From Phorcus lineatus (Eukaryota > Mollusca > Gastropoda > Trochida > Trochidae): DNA of 64,000 nucleotides. The notes under the pieces are model-generated. The model was not told the origin of the DNA, ran no database searches, and was given only the letters and a program-made list of their open reading frames with translations. Positions 1-58,900 of the stretch are shown piece by piece. The stretch spans positions 37,620,520-37,684,519 of the forward strand of contig OV121089.1 of the NCBI GenBank assembly GCA_921293015.1. The letters run 5' to 3'. Each line of letters starts with the position of its first letter. Position 1 is the first letter of the stretch. A program made the position numbers and the translations under genes.

Positions 1-73
1 TGAAATTGATCTTCAGCTCCCAGGTATTATATATTGAAAAATATGAAGTCAGAAGTAAAAACAATCCATTTTA

Positions 74-113
74 ATGGCTAGCGCTTTCAGCTCAACGAGC
101 CTCTTCAGGCCAT
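74..113 (-). ncRNA. Hammerhead ribozyme motif, PLE-1 tail (gene A, left end)
   Basis: Minus-strand reading gives the conserved CUGAAGA box (108-102), a 5-bp stem II with GUU loop (101-89), GAAA with a following GCGCU (88-80), the cleavage-site A (79) and a stem I half GCCAU (78-74) pairing with AUGGC (113-109). Layout is type I with minimal stem III, as reported for Penelope-like elements. It lies downstream of the ORF stop in the same sense. Confidence 0.8.
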
Positions 114-222
114 ACATACAACGGATAATGCGTTGCCAAGCAACGTCATCGTGTACAACATGACGTCATTACATTAATACGTCACAATATAGGTTACAAT
201 AGGATACGTGTACAGCAAAACA

Positions 223-2349
223 TTAAGTTCTAGAATTTAACCTCGGTGAAAACATTTTGATAAATCTGCTTTCTTTTGTTTCTAAAAGTTTATTGTTATC
301 AAAATTTAATTTATACATTGGGAAAACTGAAAATTGCCCGTTTCCACACTCAGCTAAATGTTTACTCAATGGAATTGTACGGTTTTTTGGGTGATTAATC
401 TGAGATCTGTGTAAATTCATGCGTAATTTTAACTTCATTTCAGTTTTTCCAATGTATTTTTCATTGCATCCAGAGCATGTGATGACATAAACAACATTTT
501 TACTGTTACAATTAAGATTTTGTCTTACAGAAAACACTTTAATTTCATTCATATGTACAGAAGAGCCTATTATGATATTTTTACATGTAAGACAGCGTAA
601 ATCACCGCATTTAGATACAGTTGGTTCTAACTCACTTGAATCAAACTTGGAAGAAGTTAATAACTTACGAAGATTTTTAGGTTGTTTAAGACTGTTCACA
701 ATTTTTGATTTACACAAAACTTTTTCCATTTCTTTACTTTGATGTAAAATAGGTAGGTTTTTGTCAATTATTGCAGCAGCGCTCTGATGGTTAGGGTTAA
801 AGGTGGAAACCAACGGGACAATGTTTTTATCACACAGTTTATTAGATTTAGGATCTCTGAGGCGACTTTGATCTAACACAGCGGCTTTCTGTACACTGTC
901 TTGTACTAGACTTTCAGGATAGTTTTGTATCAACAAAAATTCCTTGAGTTCTTTTAAACGTTCCCTCTTTTGTGTGTCATCTGTTACAATAGCAGAAATT
1001 CTTCTAGCGAGACAGTACGGGATGTTACGCTTAGTATGACTTGGATGACATGATTGAAAGTCCAGATATTGGTGTGTATCTGTAGGTTTATAGTACAAAT
1101 CCGTCTCTAACCGGCCGTCCTCTTTTACAATCACGGTCACGTCCAGAAAATTCAAATTAGAATCACTTGTTTCCATAGTGAATTTCAAAGATGGACTTAA
1201 AGAGTTCAGGATACAATGCAACTTACACAGTTCCTCTTTTGTTCCCATAAATGGCATGAAACAGTCATCCAAGAATCTTTTCCAATGCTGTTCAACATGC
1301 TCCTGCATATTCTCTCCGAGTGATTGTCCAACTTTCTCATAATGGAAAGTTTCAAGGTATCCCAAAACCAGGGTTGTATATGTGGGAGCAACTTTAGTTC
1401 CCATAGCGACGCCTTTAGTTTGTGTATAGAATGCACTATTAAAATAAAATACATTATTGGATATTACAAGATCAAGAGCATCTAGAATAAATCTGTCTGA
1501 AAACCTGTCGGCTAAGTCACATCTGCATTTGTTTAACCAATATTGTATAGCTTCTAGACCCAACTGTTTATCAATGTTATTATACATGTTAACAATGTCA
1601 AAACTAATTAAACTTGTACCTGGCGCAACATTTTTCGGTAGTTTACATAAGAAATCCAAACCATCTCTTAGATAACTTTTAACATTTCTACACAGAGGCT
1701 TCAGAATGATATCAATGAAATTACTTAAGCGTTGTGTGGGACTCTCCGGTCCACCGACTATAGGTCGGAAAGATAAATCTTCAGGATCTACACATGTTAT
1801 TACAATGTCATTCTGTTCTTCAATTTCCTTTTGGATAATTTTGCTTTTATGGACTTTGGGGAGTCCGTAAAAATAGGCTGTTTTTGATTCATAATCACAG
1901 AGATAATTTTGCTCCTGCTCCGTAAGCTCCGTGCAATGTTGTTTCAATAAAGCAGTTATTTTCCGCCTAATGCGATTCTCTTCTGTTTGATTTGAGGTGT
2001 TGTAGTAACTTTGGTTTTCTAACATTTCTGTAATTTTATTCTGGTAAAACTCTCTGTTCATTAACACAACTGCTCCACCTTTGTCCGCTATTTTGATTAT
2101 TAAGTCACAATTATTCTTCAATTGCTGTAAAGCTCTCTTTTCACCGGCAGATAAATTGTGTTTGATTTGTGTAGTTTGCACAGGTGTGGATTCCACAGCT
2201 TCTACAAAGTCATCCAGATATTTATTTCTTCCCGGTTTAGGAGTGAATTTTGACTTATTTCTCACTAAACTTTCATTCACAGAATTTAGCGGCTCTTCTG
2301 AATCGTCGCTATCACTATCATCATCTTTTTCTGTGAAATATTCTGTCAA
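223..2349 (-). CDS. Penelope-like reverse transcriptase with GIY-YIG endonuclease
   Basis: The frame is open for 708 codons in the annotated span. Visible parts: ADKGGAVVL finger motif (about 88-96), YFYGLPKVHK (159-168), RPIVGG (195-200), RT motif A SFDIVNMY (249-256), motif B GVAMGTKVAPTY (313-324), motif C FLDD (359-362), a C-x4-C-x2-C linker cluster (581-589) and a GIY-YIG nuclease (VVYVITC ... KYIGKT with LRMNLHR, about 619-650). This RT plus C-terminal GIY-YIG order defines Penelope-like elements. The first codon of the span is TTG; the frame continues upstream without a stop or an ATG through KIINLSNHHLSADEIKLL, a usual N-terminal motif of this family, up to the inverted repeat. The true start is therefore lost or non-ATG. 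It is a retroelement gene, not host coding sequence. Confidence 0.9.
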   Translation of the reverse strand: MTEYFTEKDDDSDSDDSEEPLNSVNESLVRNKSKFTPKPGRNKYLDDFVEAVESTPVQTTQIKHNLSAGEKRALQQLKNNCDLIIKIADKGGAVVLMNREFYQNKITEMLENQSYYNTSNQTEENRIRRKITALLKQHCTELTEQEQNYLCDYESKTAYFYGLPKVHKSKIIQKEIEEQNDIVITCVDPEDLSFRPIVGGPESPTQRLSNFIDIILKPLCRNVKSYLRDGLDFLCKLPKNVAPGTSLISFDIVNMYNNIDKQLGLEAIQYWLNKCRCDLADRFSDRFILDALDLVISNNVFYFNSAFYTQTKGVAMGTKVAPTYTTLVLGYLETFHYEKVGQSLGENMQEHVEQHWKRFLDDCFMPFMGTKEELCKLHCILNSLSPSLKFTMETSDSNLNFLDVTVIVKEDGRLETDLYYKPTDTHQYLDFQSCHPSHTKRNIPYCLARRISAIVTDDTQKRERLKELKEFLLIQNYPESLVQDSVQKAAVLDQSRLRDPKSNKLCDKNIVPLVSTFNPNHQSAAAIIDKNLPILHQSKEMEKVLCKSKIVNSLKQPKNLRKLLTSSKFDSSELEPTVSKCGDLRCLTCKNIIIGSSVHMNEIKVFSVRQNLNCNSKNVVYVITCSGCNEKYIGKTEMKLKLRMNLHRSQINHPKNRTIPLSKHLAECGNGQFSVFPMYKLNFDNNKLLETKESRFIKMFSPRLNSRT

Positions 2350-2677
2350 ACGTACTTTTCTGGTAAAATCTTTTAATTCAGATCTTAAAGTATCCTCATT
2401 TCTAGGAGGTGTCGGGGTAAATTTTAATCCTCTTTTTAGGAGCTTGATTTCGTCGGCAGATAGATGATGATTGCTGAGATTGATGATTTTGATAACAATA
2501 AACTTTTAGAAACAAAAGAAAGCAGATTTATCAAAATGTTTTCACCGAGGTTAAATTCTAGAACTTAATGTTTTGCTGTACACGTATCCTATTGTAACCT
2601 ATATTGTGACGTATTAATGTAATGACGTCATGTTGTACACGATGACGTTGCTTGGCAACGCATTATCCGTTGTATGT

Positions 2678-2717
2678 ATGGCCTGAAGAGGCTCGTTGAG
2701 CTGAAAGCGCTAGCCAT
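2678..2717 (+). ncRNA. Hammerhead ribozyme motif, inverted PLE-1 end (gene A)
   Basis: Stem I 2678-2682 with 2713-2717; CUGAAGA 2683-2689; stem II 2690-2694 with 2698-2702; GAAA 2703-2706; stem III limited to the self-complementary AGCGCU at 2706-2711; predicted cleavage after A2712. Antisense to the RT ORF. Confidence 0.8.
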
Positions 2718-2828
2718 TAAAATGGATTGTTTTTACTTCTGACTTCATATTTTTCAATATATAATACCTGGGAGCTGAAGATCAATTTCAAGATTGTGAA
2801 CTTTTTTCATATATATATATATATATAA

Positions 2829-3179
2829 CTTCTTTATTGAAACAACATTGCACGGAGCTTATAGAGCAGGAGCAAAATTATCTCTGTGATTATGAATCAA
2901 AAACAGCCTATTTTTACGGACTCCCCAAAATACATAAAAGCAAAATTATCCAAAAGGAAATTGAAGAACAGAATAACATTGTAATAACATGTGTAGATCC
3001 TGAAGATTTATCTTTCCGACCTATAGTCGGTGGCCCGGAGAGTCCCACACAACGCTTAAGTAATTTCATCGATATCATTCTGAAGCATTATCCGTTGTAT
3101 GTATGGCCTGAAGAGGCTCGTTGAGCTGAAAGCGCTAGCCATTAAAATGGATTGTTTTTACTTCTGACTTCATATTTTT

Positions 3180-3182
<3 letters not shown>
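2829..3182 (+). mobile_element. PLE-1 deletion derivative (RT fragment joined to 3' tail)
   Basis: On the plus strand, 2829-3085 encodes about 85 residues of the RT (QHCTELIEQEQNYLCDYESK and on to LSNFIDIILK) closely matching residues 132-217 of the neighbouring PLE-1 ORF. It then jumps directly into the PLE-1 tail (3086-3182), including a full hammerhead motif at 3103-3142. All of the RT core from motif A on and the endonuclease are missing. A (TA)n tract follows. This copy is absent at the matching place in gene B, where the tail joins the same flank directly. Confidence 0.85.
3103..3142 (+). ncRNA. Hammerhead ribozyme motif in the PLE-1 deletion derivative
   Basis: Same 40 bases as at 2678-2717, with all core boxes unchanged (CUGAAGA at 3108-3114, GAAA at 3128-3131). 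Here it is in the sense direction of the RT fragment. Confidence 0.8.

Positions 3183-3230
<48 letters not shown>
3182..3230 (+). repeat. (TA)n tract after the PLE-1 derivative
   Basis: Pure TA repeat between the Penelope tail and the shared intron 12 flank; only a few units remain at the same place in gene B. Confidence 0.95.
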
Positions 3231-3231
<1 letters not shown>

Positions 3232-3523
3232 CCGTCCTCTCAAATTCAAATCTAAAAAACATGCCAAGAACAAACAACCTTTCCGTCCTTCCTATTCTCT
3301 TAATCAACCCAAATGGGAGTACCTTCTGCTACATGAGCGAATTTGAATCCGCAGTGCTCCTTCAATACCCTGTGTAAGACACATTCATTTGTAAAATTGT
3401 GTCTACTAGTATCCTGTTTTAACTTTGAACTTTGGGTGGGCGATAAGAACATCCTAGTTAAATACGTGTTATTCAACGTAGGACTGTATATATTATACTG
3501 AACGATTTAACATGTTTTTCCAG

Positions 3524-15383: not shown

Positions 15384-18300
15384 TGAAAAGTCAGGAATAT
15401 TCACACGTTTTAATCCTTCAATAAGAATGTACATCTTTTATGGTCGTCATATTTTACTTTCATCGGTGCATCGATATTGTCTATTTGTTTTGAGAAAAGG
15501 TAGCGTTTATAAAAGCAACAAAATAATTTTTTTAAAACATTATAGTTAAAATTGACTGATAGTTAAGATGAATGAGTCCTTCAAATTTTCATGGTATTTA
15601 CAGTCTGGTTTTTTTTTTGTGTATTCACAGCGTGAGAATAGCTATATATAGGTTCCTTCTCCAGAGCATCCAAGAGTCTCAATGGGGAAGCTCCCTTCTT
15701 TGTCAGTACATCGGCCAGTTGATGTGCTGTCTGCATCCAGACAACAGTGAAGTTTGGTGATTCAAGCTTCTCTTTGATTGAGGCATTGTCCATCCTCAAC
15801 CGTTTTTCTGTGCATTTGTTGGATGTGGCGAAAAGAGCGTCATAAAGTGACTTACAGTCAGTCACGCATCGGACGTCAGGCTCTTTTCCCATGAGTTCAC
15901 CATACAGGTATGACAACAGCATACCTCTGTCGATTCCATCCGCCATTGCCATTGTTTCAGCAGCAGAGTGCTTCTGGCAACTCGTCTAATCTTCCTTGAA
16001 CTCCACATGATTGGAGCAACTTTGTTGCTCTGAAAGTTGCTCTGCCTATCTCGAAGAAATATCACACCGCCTCACACACTTATTCAGTTCCAGGATATTT
16101 TCTACTTTTGAGTTATTAACCTTTGCAGATAACTCACAAACACTGAATAATATGTCTGGTCTCGTTTGCCTGGCAGCCCTCATGATCTGTCCAATCTTTG
16201 ATCGCAGGATATCCTTTTCCTCCTGTGTCAGCGTTGTTTGCTTTTCTTGAGCTTTTGATTTGTCGAATTGGATGGGCTCAATGGATTTTCACGTAATGAT
16301 TTTGATTTAGAGAGATTCCTTCTTCGTCTTTAGAGAGTTGTAGACCTATGTATCTAAACGGTGGTTCTTCTTCTTTTCCAACAGTTAATGTTTCACGAAC
16401 ATGTTTGATCACCCTCTCCTCAAAGCTCTCATCTCCACCCCAGAGAAAATCATCTACATGACATGCTATAACACCTAACAGCCTTTCATTCTCCTTCCAG
16501 AAAAACACTGCTGGATCTACTTTAGACAATGAACCTCTTAGCGTTTCAAGCACAGATTTCACTTGCTGGTACCACTTCAGTGATGCATCACGCAGGCCAT
16601 ACACACATTTTTTAAGTTTCAACAACTTCCCTTCACAGCTGGCCTCCTTGGGCGGCTTGATGTAAACATCTCTACCAATTGCTTCACCCTGGAGAAAAGC
16701 TGTTTTAATGTCGAGGCTTTTTAGTGTCCATGTATGCATCGACATCACTGCAAGAGCCATTTTTCATAGGTTCCTGGGCACATGTTGGAGAATCACATTT
16801 GATATCACAACTGTTTTCCTCGAATCCTCGAGCAACAAGTCGAGCCTTTTTGGTAACGCCACAGTCACTTTCTTTTAGTGTACACACCCATCTAACAGAG
16901 ATGCACTTTTGTCCCCTGTTCTCTACTTCCTCAAACACTACGTTTTCACGCCAACTACTCAATTCCTTCCCCTTTGCATCATCCCATGACACATCATCAA
17001 CTGTGAGTATGGTATCCTCTTCTTGTTCAATTGTGTGTGTATTCACATCAGGAACCCGCTCTAGTTCTGAGACTTGGATTAAGTCCACAGAGATTTCGGC
17101 ACCTTCCATATCTTCTGGCTCAAGAATCTTCAAATTATATCAGTGTTTGTTTTTGTGATTTGCTTTGCCAGCTCTGCTAAGCAGTTGTGCAATAACTGTT
17201 TCCTCACCGTCTTTGTGTTTGTACTTAACAATGTCTTTAATCTGCAAGTCTGTTGTGCTTGTTGGGAGTTCTCTAGTTTCTCTGTCACCAAGATTGATTT
17301 CATTTTCATCACTTCTCTCCACAGGTGTGTTTTCACCACCTTGCTCATCCTCCATCACATGTTCATCAGTGTGTTAATGTACCAGTCGTTCAGCTTCTGG
17401 TTCAGATGTCTCCAGCTTTCTGTTAACAAGCTGGCTGTCGTCTTTTGTGGGGACTGCTTCAATGCGAGTCTTCTTCTTAAGACGGCTGATGTGTACTCTG
17501 ACTAGTCTTCCTCCATGCCTGACAAAGACCACAGAGCCATCTCTGCCGATTACGCGTCCTGGACCTCTCCATTCCAAACTGTCTGGTCTTTTGTAGAACA
17601 CTTTATCGCCTGCTTCATACAAGTCAGTGATCGGTCGAACTTGTTTCCTGATAGCTCTTCTCACTCTCTCTGCAGACTCAGATTGTGTGAATGCTCTCCT
17701 TGCTGCATACAAGGTATGATCAGAGATATGATATGAGATATGAGATATGATCAGCTACAGGAACTCTGCTTGTTGTTCCTTCCAATGCTGGCAGGTCGTC
17801 ACTCAACACAGATGGTAAGTTTGGATTGCGGCCATACACAAGTTGATAAGAGCAGAAACCGTGTATGTTGGATAGAGAGTTCTTAGCCATCAGTGCCCAT
17901 GAACACTGTTGCTCAGATTTGACCTCCAACACAATTGCAGTCAAAGTTTGATTGTGTCTCTCAAGTGCCCCATTACTCCAAGGGCTGTAAGCTGCAGTGG
18001 TAATTAATTCCATGTTGAAGTTTTCAGCCATTTCAATGACATCATAGCCTGAAAACTCTCCACCGTTGAAGAGTTTCTTTGGCGCACCATGAACTGCTAT
18101 CCACATTTGAATGAACTTCTGGAGAAACACTTTGCATTGCTTTGTTGTCATAATTGCCCTAGCACTAAACCGTGTGTACTCATCCATAATGTGTAGGTAC
18201 CATACAGATTTGTCAAGTTCATGCAAGTCAACTGCTACTACTTGGTTAAAGTCTACTGCAAGTGGTAAACCAACAGCTGGTGTGTTTGCAGGCCTCTTAA

Positions 18301-20007
18301 AACTTGAACAAATGTCACATGACCCACTGACTTCATCCAAGAAATCAAAAGCCTTTGTGTTAACAACACTAGCATCTTTTAATAATTTCTCAAGTCTCTG
18401 CCCACTTCGGTGTCCAAACTGAACATGTAGTTTCCTAATTGTCCTTTTCAAGTCTTTACTCTCTACGTCATCCAGAAGAAGAACTTGTAGCGAACTAAGT
18501 TCATCATCATGAGTGTGTTTGGTTCCAAGTTCAACACAATAATGACCGCTTGAAGTGTACATTATTTGCACTGGTTGTCCAAACATGCTTAACGTGTCAT
18601 TTTTCATGTCAATTATTGTCCCTGCTTTCTGTAAAGATGATTTACTCAATAGCAAAGGAATGTCAGCTGACACAACTTCAGATTCAATTTCACATTCAGT
18701 CTCACCTATCTTCACAGGAAGAACAATTTTCTTGCTTGATTGTACTCGCTTTCCATCTCCAAACCTAAAGGATTTGTGACTTAGTTTCCTTTGTAACACG
18801 TCCACCATGTCTCTGAAAATCTTCAAAGCAACTTTCACCACAAACAGTTCTTGAACAAGCCCTGTCAACAACGGCACAGCCTGATGCTTCTGTAATGCTT
18901 CAAGTGTGAACAGAACTAAATTACACACATCTTCATCACTATCATTGCCATCCATTTCAACAAGTCTAACATGATCATTCTTATGAGGGCAATCTTTCAT
19001 CAAATGGTACGTTGATTGACAGATGATACATCTTGACCTCCGACCATTCCTGTCAAGTGGATTTGTACCTCTTCTCAATGTGCCTATTGACTTGTTTTGG
19101 TGTACATATTTGCGTGACTTAGTGAACATTACATCTTCTGTTTTTATTGTAATAGCTGATTGTTGATCAGTTTGTATAGTATGTCCAAATACTCTCTTTA
19201 AAGCCCCTTTCATTGTCTCATATTTTCTATCAGTCGCAGCAGTAAGTGCAAGTTTACGATCTTTTTCATCAAGTTGAGAACTGTCTAACAATTTGAAACT
19301 GAGTACAGAATCTGGTAATGTCATATCATTTCGTTTGCACAGACCGTACCTTTTCTCATATTCCACAATGAAATCCATCATGCTGGTTCCAGGGCTTTTA
19401 CGATAAGAATCTAAACTGACGAAAGCTTCGTATGCCAGATCATTTGAGTCTCTAAGGTATACGGTATCCAAACGTTTCAGTAATTCCTCTAAACCGTCTT
19501 CGGCACTCAACTTTGTATGACCCAACTCTCGTGCGGTAGATCTTGCCGTTCGAGTTAGTGAAAGAGCCACTGCCCCACCTAACTGCTGTTTCTTTAGTGT
19601 TGTAACGTCTTTCCATATATTAATTTCAAGTTTCCAGTCTTCGTAAGACCTATTTGAATCAAACATCGGCGGATTTCTGTAATCCTTCGCCGCCATTTTG
19701 GTACGTAGCGTGATGTCCAAAAGTAATATTTCCACACAATGTTATTTGGATTTCGTTCTCTCTCCGTGAATACTGAAATTGCTCTGCTACCATGAAAAGT
19801 CAGGAATATTCACACGTTTTAATCCTTCAATAAGAATGTACCTCATTTATGGCCGTCATATTTTACTTTCATCGTTGCATCGATATTGTCTAGCGAGCAC
19901 ATGCTCTTCACTCGTCAACGGAAATAACATCTCCTATCATCCTGTCATGCGCACAATCCAAAAGCGGATATTACGATTTATACATTTACATAATTAGATA
20001 GTTAAAC
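15384..20007 (-). mobile_element. Ty1/copia-like LTR retrotransposon, broken
   Basis: Parts in copia order on the minus strand: right LTR 19793-20007 (5' LTR of the element), a primer-binding site matching initiator tRNA-Met directly inside it (19782-19792), a gag region with a CCHC zinc knuckle, protease and integrase region (about 17.7-19.7 kb), reverse transcriptase and RNase H region (about 15.6-17.1 kb), and a left LTR recognisable over about 100 bases from 15384. The LTRs begin TGAAAAG and differ at about 4 of 100 aligned bases, so the copy is moderately young but not fresh. Coding is in several pieces, so it is broken in several places. A short target duplication (CTTG) flanks it, and gene C carries the uninterrupted site at 48391-48405. 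Confidence 0.85.
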
Positions 20008-20289: not shown

Positions 20290-45542
<25,253 letters not shown>

Positions 45543-55900: not shown

Positions 55901-58900
55901 GTGTGTTGACGCTAATTAATTCTACATGTACAACGTTTCAGTATAGATTTTAATATATCACTTGTTTGACCAATTTAGATACATAGAGAATCTCACCAAA
56001 TATCTCCGTATCAAATATGTCAACACGAGTCAATAGAAGTTTTTCAAAATCCGCATCAAAAGGCACGAGGGTCAGATTCTTTTTATCATTCAAAATCATT
56101 TTTCAGTACGATTTCACGAAATATTTACATCACTACCCGAAAATTCCAAATTCAGTTCATTCTTGACTACTGTTGGTTCAAATGAACAAACCCGACCTCT
56201 TCAATATTGTGAATTTCATAATACCTGTGTTTGTATTCTCCAGGTGCCTACGGCATCAATTGTTACGGAGATTGTAGATCTGTGAGTGTGTCCAGGTGTG
56301 ACATCCATCATACCTGTGGGGGCGTGTCCATTGCAGGTAAAATTGGCATATAAGTAACTCATGGTTTGTTGCAGGAACTGTTTATATTTTGAGTTTTTAG
56401 TAGATATCAGTATTAGGTGATGTATATGCTTCAACTTACTTCGATACATGAAATGTAAGTATATTAGGACTACCTTCCCCTCCCCACTTTTTCAATAGTG
56501 ACCCCCAAGAAATGCACACTGATCCATTCCCAATATTTTCCGTTATTATGTGAAAATCTTTAGTATATGCCATAATCTTAAATGTGTTTAAAAATTTGTA
56601 AACACGTCTTGTCCTCCTATAAGTACTCTCAGTAAGTAGCCTGCACAATGCGTAGTAATTTAGTGTTGTAAAGTATAACGGGAAACGAAAGAAATTTGGA
56701 TCTTGTTTTGAATCGGTGTTTTTCCAGAGAGTTGAAAAAAGCCCAAAAAATCAACTTAGAAACAAGTTGGAAACAAAAAAGACAAAACAATTTACATAAG
56801 TGGAATTTTGTAACTTCCAAACTTGCAGGGGGAGACCGGAAGACGCTGACTCCTTCTCTGAACGTGTTGGAAGACAACCATATATGGCAGTACGCCCGGG
56901 AGGGAGGAGTTGGATACAACGCTATCAGCCCATTCGGAGTTGCCATCAACATGCGATACAACCACATCCATGACGGGCAGTACACAGGGATCAGATGGGA
57001 TGTACGTGGGCCTTTAAAGCGACTTTTCCATTGTTTCGCCTCCTAGCAGCCATCTTGGGCGTTTTTGCATTACCTTAAAAACGCTGTATTTTCTAAATCT
57101 ACAACCTGCCTAAGAAAAAATAGATGACTTGATAAAATGTACTCTCAGTGACGTAATTTTCTTGGATTTCTAACTGATCATCTACCAGTGACGGATATGT
57201 ATATAAACAGGAGTGTCCTCTCAAATTCAAATCTAAAAAAACATACCCAGAATAAAAAGAAATCTTTCATCCTTTCTATTTCTCTTTATCAACCCAAATG
57301 CGAGTATCTTCAGCTACCATACCGCATTTGAATCCACAGATTGTAAAATGGTGTCTATTAGTATCCTGTTCCTATATTTATTATGAATGAGGATTAATTG
57401 TATCGGTAGAAATACAAATACATGGTCTATATATATATATAAAGCAAATTGTAGTTATTGTATGAAATGCTATTGAAATGTGTATAAGATGATATCTTGG
57501 AACAGATATATGTATGTCTATAGCTTTTGTTTATATCATTGTGTCAATGTGAAAATTTGGCTGTCTCTGCTGTCTTGAATAATTTGTGTTCAATTTTTTT
57601 TGCTCTTGTACCACCGTTGGTGGCGATTTGATCTCAATAGATAAATTTGAGTCTGAATCTGATTTTTTGCGTGAGCGAGTGTTATTTAACATAGGACTGT
57701 GTATATACATACTAAACAATTTAACATGTGTTTCCAGGGAAACGATCACGTGATGGAGTACAACCACTTGCACCACCTGTGCGCCAACTCGAGTGATTGT
57801 GGGGCGCTTCATGCAGGTCGGGACTGGACCATGGTACGTCATACTGAAAATAAGCAATTCTCAAATTCAAGAAGCTATCAGCTTTGTAGGGTTCTTAGTT
57901 CCAATGAAGAATAATGACCACAGAACAGGTCAGAGAATCTCTAAGTCTACAAATTCAATTCAAAATTAATCAAGAAATTTTTGCAAAAGCTGTCAGTTTT
58001 TATTATTTCAATCAGACTAAATTAAGAACAAATTTGTTTGGAGGTGACCACCATGGCCAGACCTTGTTTGATACTAAACTTTGTTTAACCCTTGTGGTAC
58101 GCCTTAATCGTTGTTAAAAAATACACTTCAATAGTGAGTCTGCCCTGTATCTGTACCATTTTGTTCGCGACGAGCATCCTGCTGCTTTCATTTTTGACAG
58201 TGACTACTCAATTGATCATTTTTAAAATCTATTTCTAATATGCGAACATATAAAAAATTACTTAACAAACCTCATGAACAGGAGCGGATTTCTCGATGCT
58301 TTAATGATAATATTCACTATCGAAGTCCATATTTTCTGACACCTTTTGTGTTTATCAACAGGTGTGTCATAATATAGTCATGAGGTCGATATTATTAGCC
58401 TCAGGTCCACCACAATTATAACTTTACATTTCTCGTTAACATTTCCCTGGACCTCATGCGAGGCCGGAAGTCAATTGGGCTGTTTAGACCCGGCCGTTTA
58501 GACCCGATAAACTTAAATTTTATTCCTAACAAAAAGGTGGATGAATTAATGAAGTTAATTAATCAATCATTTTCACTTTAGTGTGTCTTATGTCTCTGAC
58601 AAAATTTGAACCTTAATGTGGTATTCTCCACACCCTACAGAGGGGAGTCCATATCCGCCACAACCACATCCACCACACCATAAGGAAGTTTCCGGGGGCC
58701 CAGGTGAGGGGGGTCATGCTGGACGATCAGTACTCCAGTGTCACCATCGAGCACAACGTCTTCTACGATGTAAGTGACACAGTTTCAATTTGAGAGTTGT
58801 AAGATTGTGAATTTAGAAAGAGACTATTTACAAAAGAGTTCGAAATTAAACTATTTTAAAACTTTTTATCTTTCAAAAAGCATGTTGAAGGAACTTTCAT

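Follow-up and report, generated by a model that had tools for sequence, protein, structure and literature searches.

Hammerheads and inverted ends in described Penelope-like elements

Minimal type I hammerheads are said to have been described in the pLTRs of Penelope-like elements by Cervera and de la Pena in 2014 and by Lunse et al. in 2017. The motif reported here shares with them the type I layout, a stem III that is nearly absent, the placement in the pLTR and the kind of element that harbors it and, as in those hammerheads, a self-complementary AGCGCU makes it suited to dimer formation. No difference in kind was seen, although the stems are particular to the present family and the Rfam models give the motif no score. 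According to excerpts of two papers, such motifs have been described without helix III, with cleavage possibly or reportedly occurring as dimers (PMC7761336, PMC6466107), and in the review among them it is stated that motifs with almost no stem III may self-cleave as dimers (PMC7761336).

Two further described systems, both drawn on here from excerpts of the respective papers, are comparable in architecture. The Pen2-type elements of Adineta vaga (Arkhipova et al. 2013, PMC3846280) exhibit head-to-head inverted pLTRs, 5′-truncated members, an optional tail of about 30-40 nt and AT-rich targets, all of which are also found in the present element, and a 5′-truncated member flanked by inverted pLTRs has been described among them. 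In the present element, by contrast, the inverted arm also takes in the last 80 nt or so of the ORF, and a direct 5′ pLTR is not seen. The word hammerhead has 0 occurrences in the excerpted text of that paper. Poseidon of Anolis carolinensis (Frangieh et al. 2024, PMC11167929) is likewise a GIY-YIG element with a pLTR hammerhead and an AT-rich target, and its tail, which is bounded by two reverse transcription start sites, may be counted as a further likeness. Poseidon forms direct tandem repeats in which the hammerhead overlaps the ORF start, while in the present element the frame following the motif is interrupted within the pLTR. An optional tail of 30-40 nt is a feature of Penelope elements in both accounts (PMC3846280, PMC11167929). 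The sense and antisense placement of motifs by inverted ends had been considered notable in the earlier note on this DNA; the excerpted A. vaga text, however, calls the head-to-head arrangement the most frequently observed inverted form (PMC3846280). A literature search for antisense hammerheads derived from inverted pLTRs as such found none, although such accounts may still exist.

Two copies of a Penelope-like element with five identical motifs

In the window, namely the whole 64,000-nt stretch of DNA analysed, three host units that are related to one another are arranged in tandem near 3.2, 33 and 57 kb. The first two carry copies 1 and 2 of a Penelope-like element (element A; Table 1), while the third is without Penelope-like elements. 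A 36-nt core occurs five times in identical form in the window, at 76-111 and 30573-30608 on the minus strand and at 2680-2715, 3105-3140 and 33171-33206 on the plus strand, compared with a mean of 0.00 copies in 100 shuffles, and the five copies are also identical over a wider motif of 63 nt. The five motifs do not represent independent cases, since the two element copies occupy the same place in duplicated host units.

Table 1. Positions of the element copies, hammerhead motifs and associated features in the 64,000-nt window.
Feature	Position	Strand	Remarks
Left arm of inverted repeat, copy 1	1..305	-	Clipped by window start
Hammerhead motif, left end of copy 1	64..126	-	Sense to ORF; H17 at 79
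Penelope-like ORF of copy 1	223..2505	-	760 codons stop to stop; GIY-YIG residues 670-754
Right arm, copy 1	2486..2798	+	5′-truncated inverted copy of the same 3′ end; full tail 2763-2798
Hammerhead motif in the inverted right arm, copy 1	2665..2727	+	Antisense to ORF
Stem I of the 2665..2727 motif	2678-2682/2713-2717 and 2665-2671/2721-2727	+	
Stem II of the 2665..2727 motif	2690-2694/2698-2702	+	
Stem III of the 2665..2727 motif	2706-2707/2710-2711	+	H17 = A2712
Extra plus-strand fragment in copy 1	2825..3188	+	Followed by TA run
Third hammerhead motif of copy 1	3090..3152	+	Tail-less pLTR of extra plus-strand fragment; H17 = A3137
Element B, 5′-truncated end of a second Penelope-like family	about 29930..30440	-	74% identity across 78 aa
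Hammerhead counterpart of element B	29968..30029	-	Core position 14 is C, not A
36-nt tail, left end of copy 2	30490..30525	-	Followed by TA run
Hammerhead motif, left end of copy 2	30561..30623	-	Sense to ORF
Penelope-like ORF of copy 2	30720..32996	-	758 codons stop to stop; GIY-YIG residues 668-752
Hammerhead motif in the inverted right arm, copy 2	33156..33218	+	Antisense to ORF
Empty site, third host unit	57190..57219 (approximate limits)	.	Short TATATA stretch in place of the elements of units 1 and 2

The hammerhead core consists of CUGANGA, GAAA and a UH ahead of stem I. Read as RNA, the motif contains CUGAAGA, GAAA and a cleavable UA before stem I, with the core being complete in 5/5 copies, and three stems can be drawn around this core in an arrangement that is open at stem I. 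Stem I comprises 5 bp, an internal loop and a further 7 bp, stem II comprises 5 bp (including one G-U pair) with a 3-nt loop, while stem III is made up of only 2 bp around the 2-nt loop CG. These observations agree with the earlier note, which had placed five copies with complete cores and pairing stems I and II in the window and had predicted cleavage after A2712: all five were found in those places, identical over 36 nt, the stems pair and H17 coincides with A2712.

The motif at the left end of copy 1 is located downstream of the ORF, with its core beginning about 115 nt past the position of the stop codon. The end of the ORF in both copies matches the GIY-YIG family (Pfam PF01541; 28.8 and 29.0 bits; cut-off: 22.6). 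The first methionine of the copy 1 ORF is residue 149 and the frame enters the inverted arm, suggesting that the ORF has probably lost its 5′ end. Stretches at residues 302, 365 and 410 resemble motifs of the telomerase-like reverse transcriptase domain expected in Penelope-like elements. No Pfam reverse transcriptase family matched the ORF, nor did any PDB chain at E up to 0.01, and the structure model of the ORF product was unusable (pLDDT: 29.8). A search of viral contigs and prokaryote genome contigs for relatives of the element yielded none. Further Penelope-like traits are the inverted pLTR arms, the occurrence of the tail at some ends only and the AT-rich insertion site.

Probable identity of the motif as a minimal hammerhead

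A hammerhead descriptor that includes the stems, composed after the motif had been seen, returns exactly the five copies from the whole window at zero core mismatches, while 40 dinucleotide shuffles of the window give a mean of 0.05 and a maximum of 1. Allowing one core mismatch adds the counterpart in element B and a match at 35736 on the minus strand; the shuffles yield a mean of 1.075 such matches per window, and the latter match was set aside on this account. The core pattern without stems is weak when taken alone, with 16 matches in the whole window against 3.84 expected.

The covariance-model comparison named as a check in the earlier note did not recover the motif. Rfam 15 gave no hammerhead in the whole window at the gathering score, and none at E up to 10 in the regions 2600-3250 (651 bases) and 2650-2740 (91 bases), in a comparison run without a known Penelope hammerhead as positive control. 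The 11 Rfam matches listed at E up to 10 for 2600-3250 fall below the gathering scores of their own families, many of them on the TA run, and were rejected. Free folding likewise does not distinguish the motif from shuffled sequence, with 92/200 shuffles at least as stable as the 40-mer (z: -0.04) and 8/200 at least as stable as the 71-mer (z: -1.87), and the minimum-energy fold of the monomer has a different shape from that of a hammerhead. The full hammerhead shape could not be scored because ViennaRNA disallows the 2-nt loop of stem III, while the shape without stem III is assigned -16.4 kcal/mol against a minimum of -19.7 kcal/mol.

Further support for the hammerhead reading is derived from element B, which keeps a motif in the same place, with stems that are different but pair. 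This motif is found at the corresponding site after the element B ORF and contains CUGAUGA, a 9-bp stem II and a two-part stem I layout resembling that of element A, as well as a stem III of 2 bp around the same CG in which an A-U replaces a G-C pair. All of the hand-placed pairs (19/19) are standard despite the changed stem sequences in this one, degenerate relative. The counterpart is probably inactive, to judge from its sequence, since core position 14 is occupied by C instead of A.

Taken with the GIY-YIG ORF, the core and stems bear out the earlier reading of minimal hammerheads in a Penelope-like element, and there is little doubt that the motif represents a hammerhead of the Penelope kind, minimal and of type I, with putative activity. 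The motif is real, resides in an element of known kind and is the self-cutting motif usual for that kind, adding a minimal hammerhead to which no score is given by the Rfam models.

Inverted ends and the origin of the head-to-head structure

The ends of the element are inverted, with 305/305 identical bases between 1-305 and 2486-2790 in copy 1 and 277/278 in copy 2. The left arm of copy 1 contains the ORF end, the 3′ UTR, the pLTR with the sense hammerhead and the first 28 nt of the tail. One motif is thus sense and the other antisense to the ORF, as the earlier note had held. The outer end on either side is the 3′ end of the element and the two pieces therefore lie head to head. TA runs are found at the visible outer ends, while the inverted arm adjoins the ORF with no TA run between them. 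The complete 36-nt tail occurs both in the copy 1 right arm and on the left side of copy 2, and its first 28 nt are visible at the left end of copy 1, while it is absent from the right end of copy 2 and from the extra pLTR ending at 3188. The latter belongs to the extra plus-strand fragment, which consists of a reverse transcriptase piece (2825-3086; 97% identity to 1698-1959) fused to a tail-less pLTR (3085-3188). Ten extra bases (2799-2808) separate the tail from the TA run in the copy 1 right arm and have no counterpart at the left end of copy 2. Inspection of the ends viewed revealed no recognisable target site duplication.

The overall explanation that we favor, with some reserve, is that of an element with a pLTR hammerhead whose inverted ends were left by an insertion primed on both DNA strands; the priming of both strands as the specific route is itself given about an even chance. 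The element would have entered an AT-rich site, where reverse transcription would have begun from both cut strands at the 3′ end of the element, with or without the tail. One cDNA would have reached nearly full length while the other halted after about 300 nt, and the two unfinished 5′ ends would then have been joined head to head. According to excerpts of a study of the green anole, the purified protein of its Penelope-like element is able to cut and extend either strand of DNA, with a preference for AT-rich sites, and begins reverse transcription within the RNA from two positions that bound the tail (PMC11167929). The present locus provides one clear case in which head-to-head 3′ ends, an optional tail and TA runs occur together, as expected from priming on both cut strands. 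Joining through measured microhomology was dropped from consideration, as an intact 5′ start is needed to judge either microhomology or a palindrome at the joint 2485/2486.

A different route to the same layout was proposed by Arkhipova and colleagues for A. vaga (PMC3846280). Here the end of a strand folds back and primes a second copy on the antisense template, giving rise to a head-to-head joint. This self-priming would require only a single target cut and would produce arms that match as well as the observed 305/305. In the excerpted A. vaga text it was, however, inferred from palindromes at the inverted joint (PMC3846280), and none was recognised by eye at the joint 2485/2486, nor was a short inverted pair at this joint present among 25 of the 27 repeat pairs listed. 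Furthermore, self-priming alone leaves unexplained why a 3′ end lies beside TA runs at both outer ends, and we consider it the less plausible route, though one deserving of attention. The site has also gathered element B, element A and the extra plus-strand fragment, and the inverted ends could accordingly stem from two independent events within one family, in which a short 5′-truncated copy entered the same AT-rich site after the first insertion, directly beside it and in the opposite orientation. The arms are, however, 305/305 and 277/278 identical, whereas the extra fragment, at 97%, is less similar to element A, and no TA run separates the inverted arm from the ORF, making two insertions rather improbable.

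Under priming on both strands, a 3′ end with its hammerhead is placed at both outer ends, and the hammerhead opposing the ORF would therefore be a by-product of insertion. We consider it probable that the antisense hammerhead arose in this manner from the head-to-head structure and was not purposefully designed for action on two strands. The antisense feature to which the earlier note had drawn attention is thus most likely a consequence of how such elements insert.

History of the insertion in the host units

An alignment of copies 1 and 2 shows 10 differences over 2757 bases, together with one 6-base gap. The right flanks of the two units differ at 81 of 3896 bases, with 1, 6, 4, 3, 6, 34, 7 and 20 differences in successive 500-base intervals. 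The element is thus less diverged than the near flank (10/2757 against 20/2488; Fisher p: 0.043) and much less diverged than the whole flank (10/2757 against 81/3896; p: 2e-10). The copies share the same place and the same joint, which favors a single insertion before units 1 and 2 parted, and they are probably one insertion that was duplicated along with the host locus. For the same reasons, independent insertion of the two copies was judged less likely than duplication. The lower divergence of the element in comparison to its flank counts against a single shared insertion unless conversion occurred later or the flank changed unevenly; because of this difference, later conversion, uneven change of the flank and separate insertions of copies 1 and 2 are all possible. 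The study base is accordingly one insertion, or at most two, within the window. Copy 2 could be copy 1 minus 425 bp, lost between two identical direct repeats of 104 nt.

The recurrence of the same joint in two copies that differ at 10 bases and by a 6-base gap also bears on whether the palindrome is an artefact of assembly or sequencing. Long perfect inverted repeats beside TA runs assemble poorly and the arms of copy 1 are 100% identical, but the layout is reported for Penelope-like elements in the excerpted A. vaga text (PMC3846280) and an artefact is hardly credible in the light of the shared joint.

Consequences for self-cutting of transcripts

The ordinary use of the motif is probably the cutting of sense transcripts of tandem copies as dimers, while in the inverted copy it would mostly be buried in a long hairpin. 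The earlier note had further proposed that transcripts of either strand could be self-cut. The part of this proposal that concerns sequence holds, as intact cores are found on both strands, but on either strand the complement lies upstream of the ribozyme and is made first, and in the predicted folds the resulting duplex covers the whole core of the minus-strand motif and, in copy 1, that of one plus-strand motif out of two. For the minus transcript (2790 nt), the prediction has 36/36 bases of the hammerhead paired with the complement, while the same minus-strand motif without the inverted arm has 5/36 bases paired outside its surroundings. For the plus transcript of copy 1, with a length of 3240 nt, one hammerhead is predicted to be fully paired with its complement while the other has 5/36 bases paired outside its surroundings. 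In a short plus transcript covering 2600-3240, the two motifs have 22/36 and 24/36 bases paired outside their own surroundings, with the pairing being mostly of motif with motif and not hammerhead-shaped. The folds are predicted from energy and take no account of tertiary contacts, of proteins or of co-transcriptional folding.

That the two orientations serve or allow the self-cutting of transcripts from both strands is, as such, very doubtful. In its favor, besides the intact cores, one of the plus-strand motifs of copy 1 stays outside the long duplex, and a plus-strand dimer is conceivable, given that two plus-strand motifs lie 425 nt apart and one of them is outside the duplex. The excerpted text furthermore suggests that one A. 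vaga pLTR might possess a bidirectional promoter (PMC3846280). Against this stand the burial of the minus-strand motif and of one plus-strand motif out of two, each at 36/36 core bases, a stem III of just 2 bp, and the anole element, which in the excerpted report showed no cleavage without protein (PMC11167929). Insertion of the latter element in vitro was independent of cleavage, and none of the reads terminated where cleavage would occur (PMC11167929). The argument for cutting of either strand is weak because a perfect complement is transcribed first and in the fold covers all core bases of the minus-strand motif and of one plus-strand motif; on these models, self-cutting of transcripts from either strand appears less likely but could still occur. 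Should the ribozymes of inverted copies generally be hidden within a hairpin, any claim of self-cutting on two strands that is made from genome sequences would have to be discounted.

The two plus-strand hammerheads at 2683-3137, 425 nt apart, are the only two motifs of a single element copy that share an orientation. If these motifs were active as a dimer, a 425-nt RNA could be released.

An inverted-only layout might also be envisaged as a stable, inherited architecture that acts as an RNA lock, an idea to which we attach very little credence. Were it true, a full-length transcript would carry the complement upstream of its ribozyme and be shielded from self-cutting, while a transcript starting inside the element would lack the lock and be cut. 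Unequal codons at the tail end and the ORF start would then signify that tandem copies no longer keep both alike.

The tail end (2763-2805; codons K-I-V-N-F) and the ORF start (2470-2490; K-I-I-N-L) carry codons that seem to have diverged from one common set, as though the pair were no longer kept alike, over a likeness of only 15 nt.

Neighboring elements

Other mobile element remnants are present in the window. Copia-like retrotransposon pieces are located at 16278-19741 on the minus strand and include an RVT_2 match (e-value: 5.2e-20) and a weak integrase core match that falls below its cut-off. A frame at 28614-29021 on the minus strand encodes a Mos1 transposase HTH domain (HTH_48; 27.4 bits; cut-off: 24.1) and represents a mariner-like remnant.
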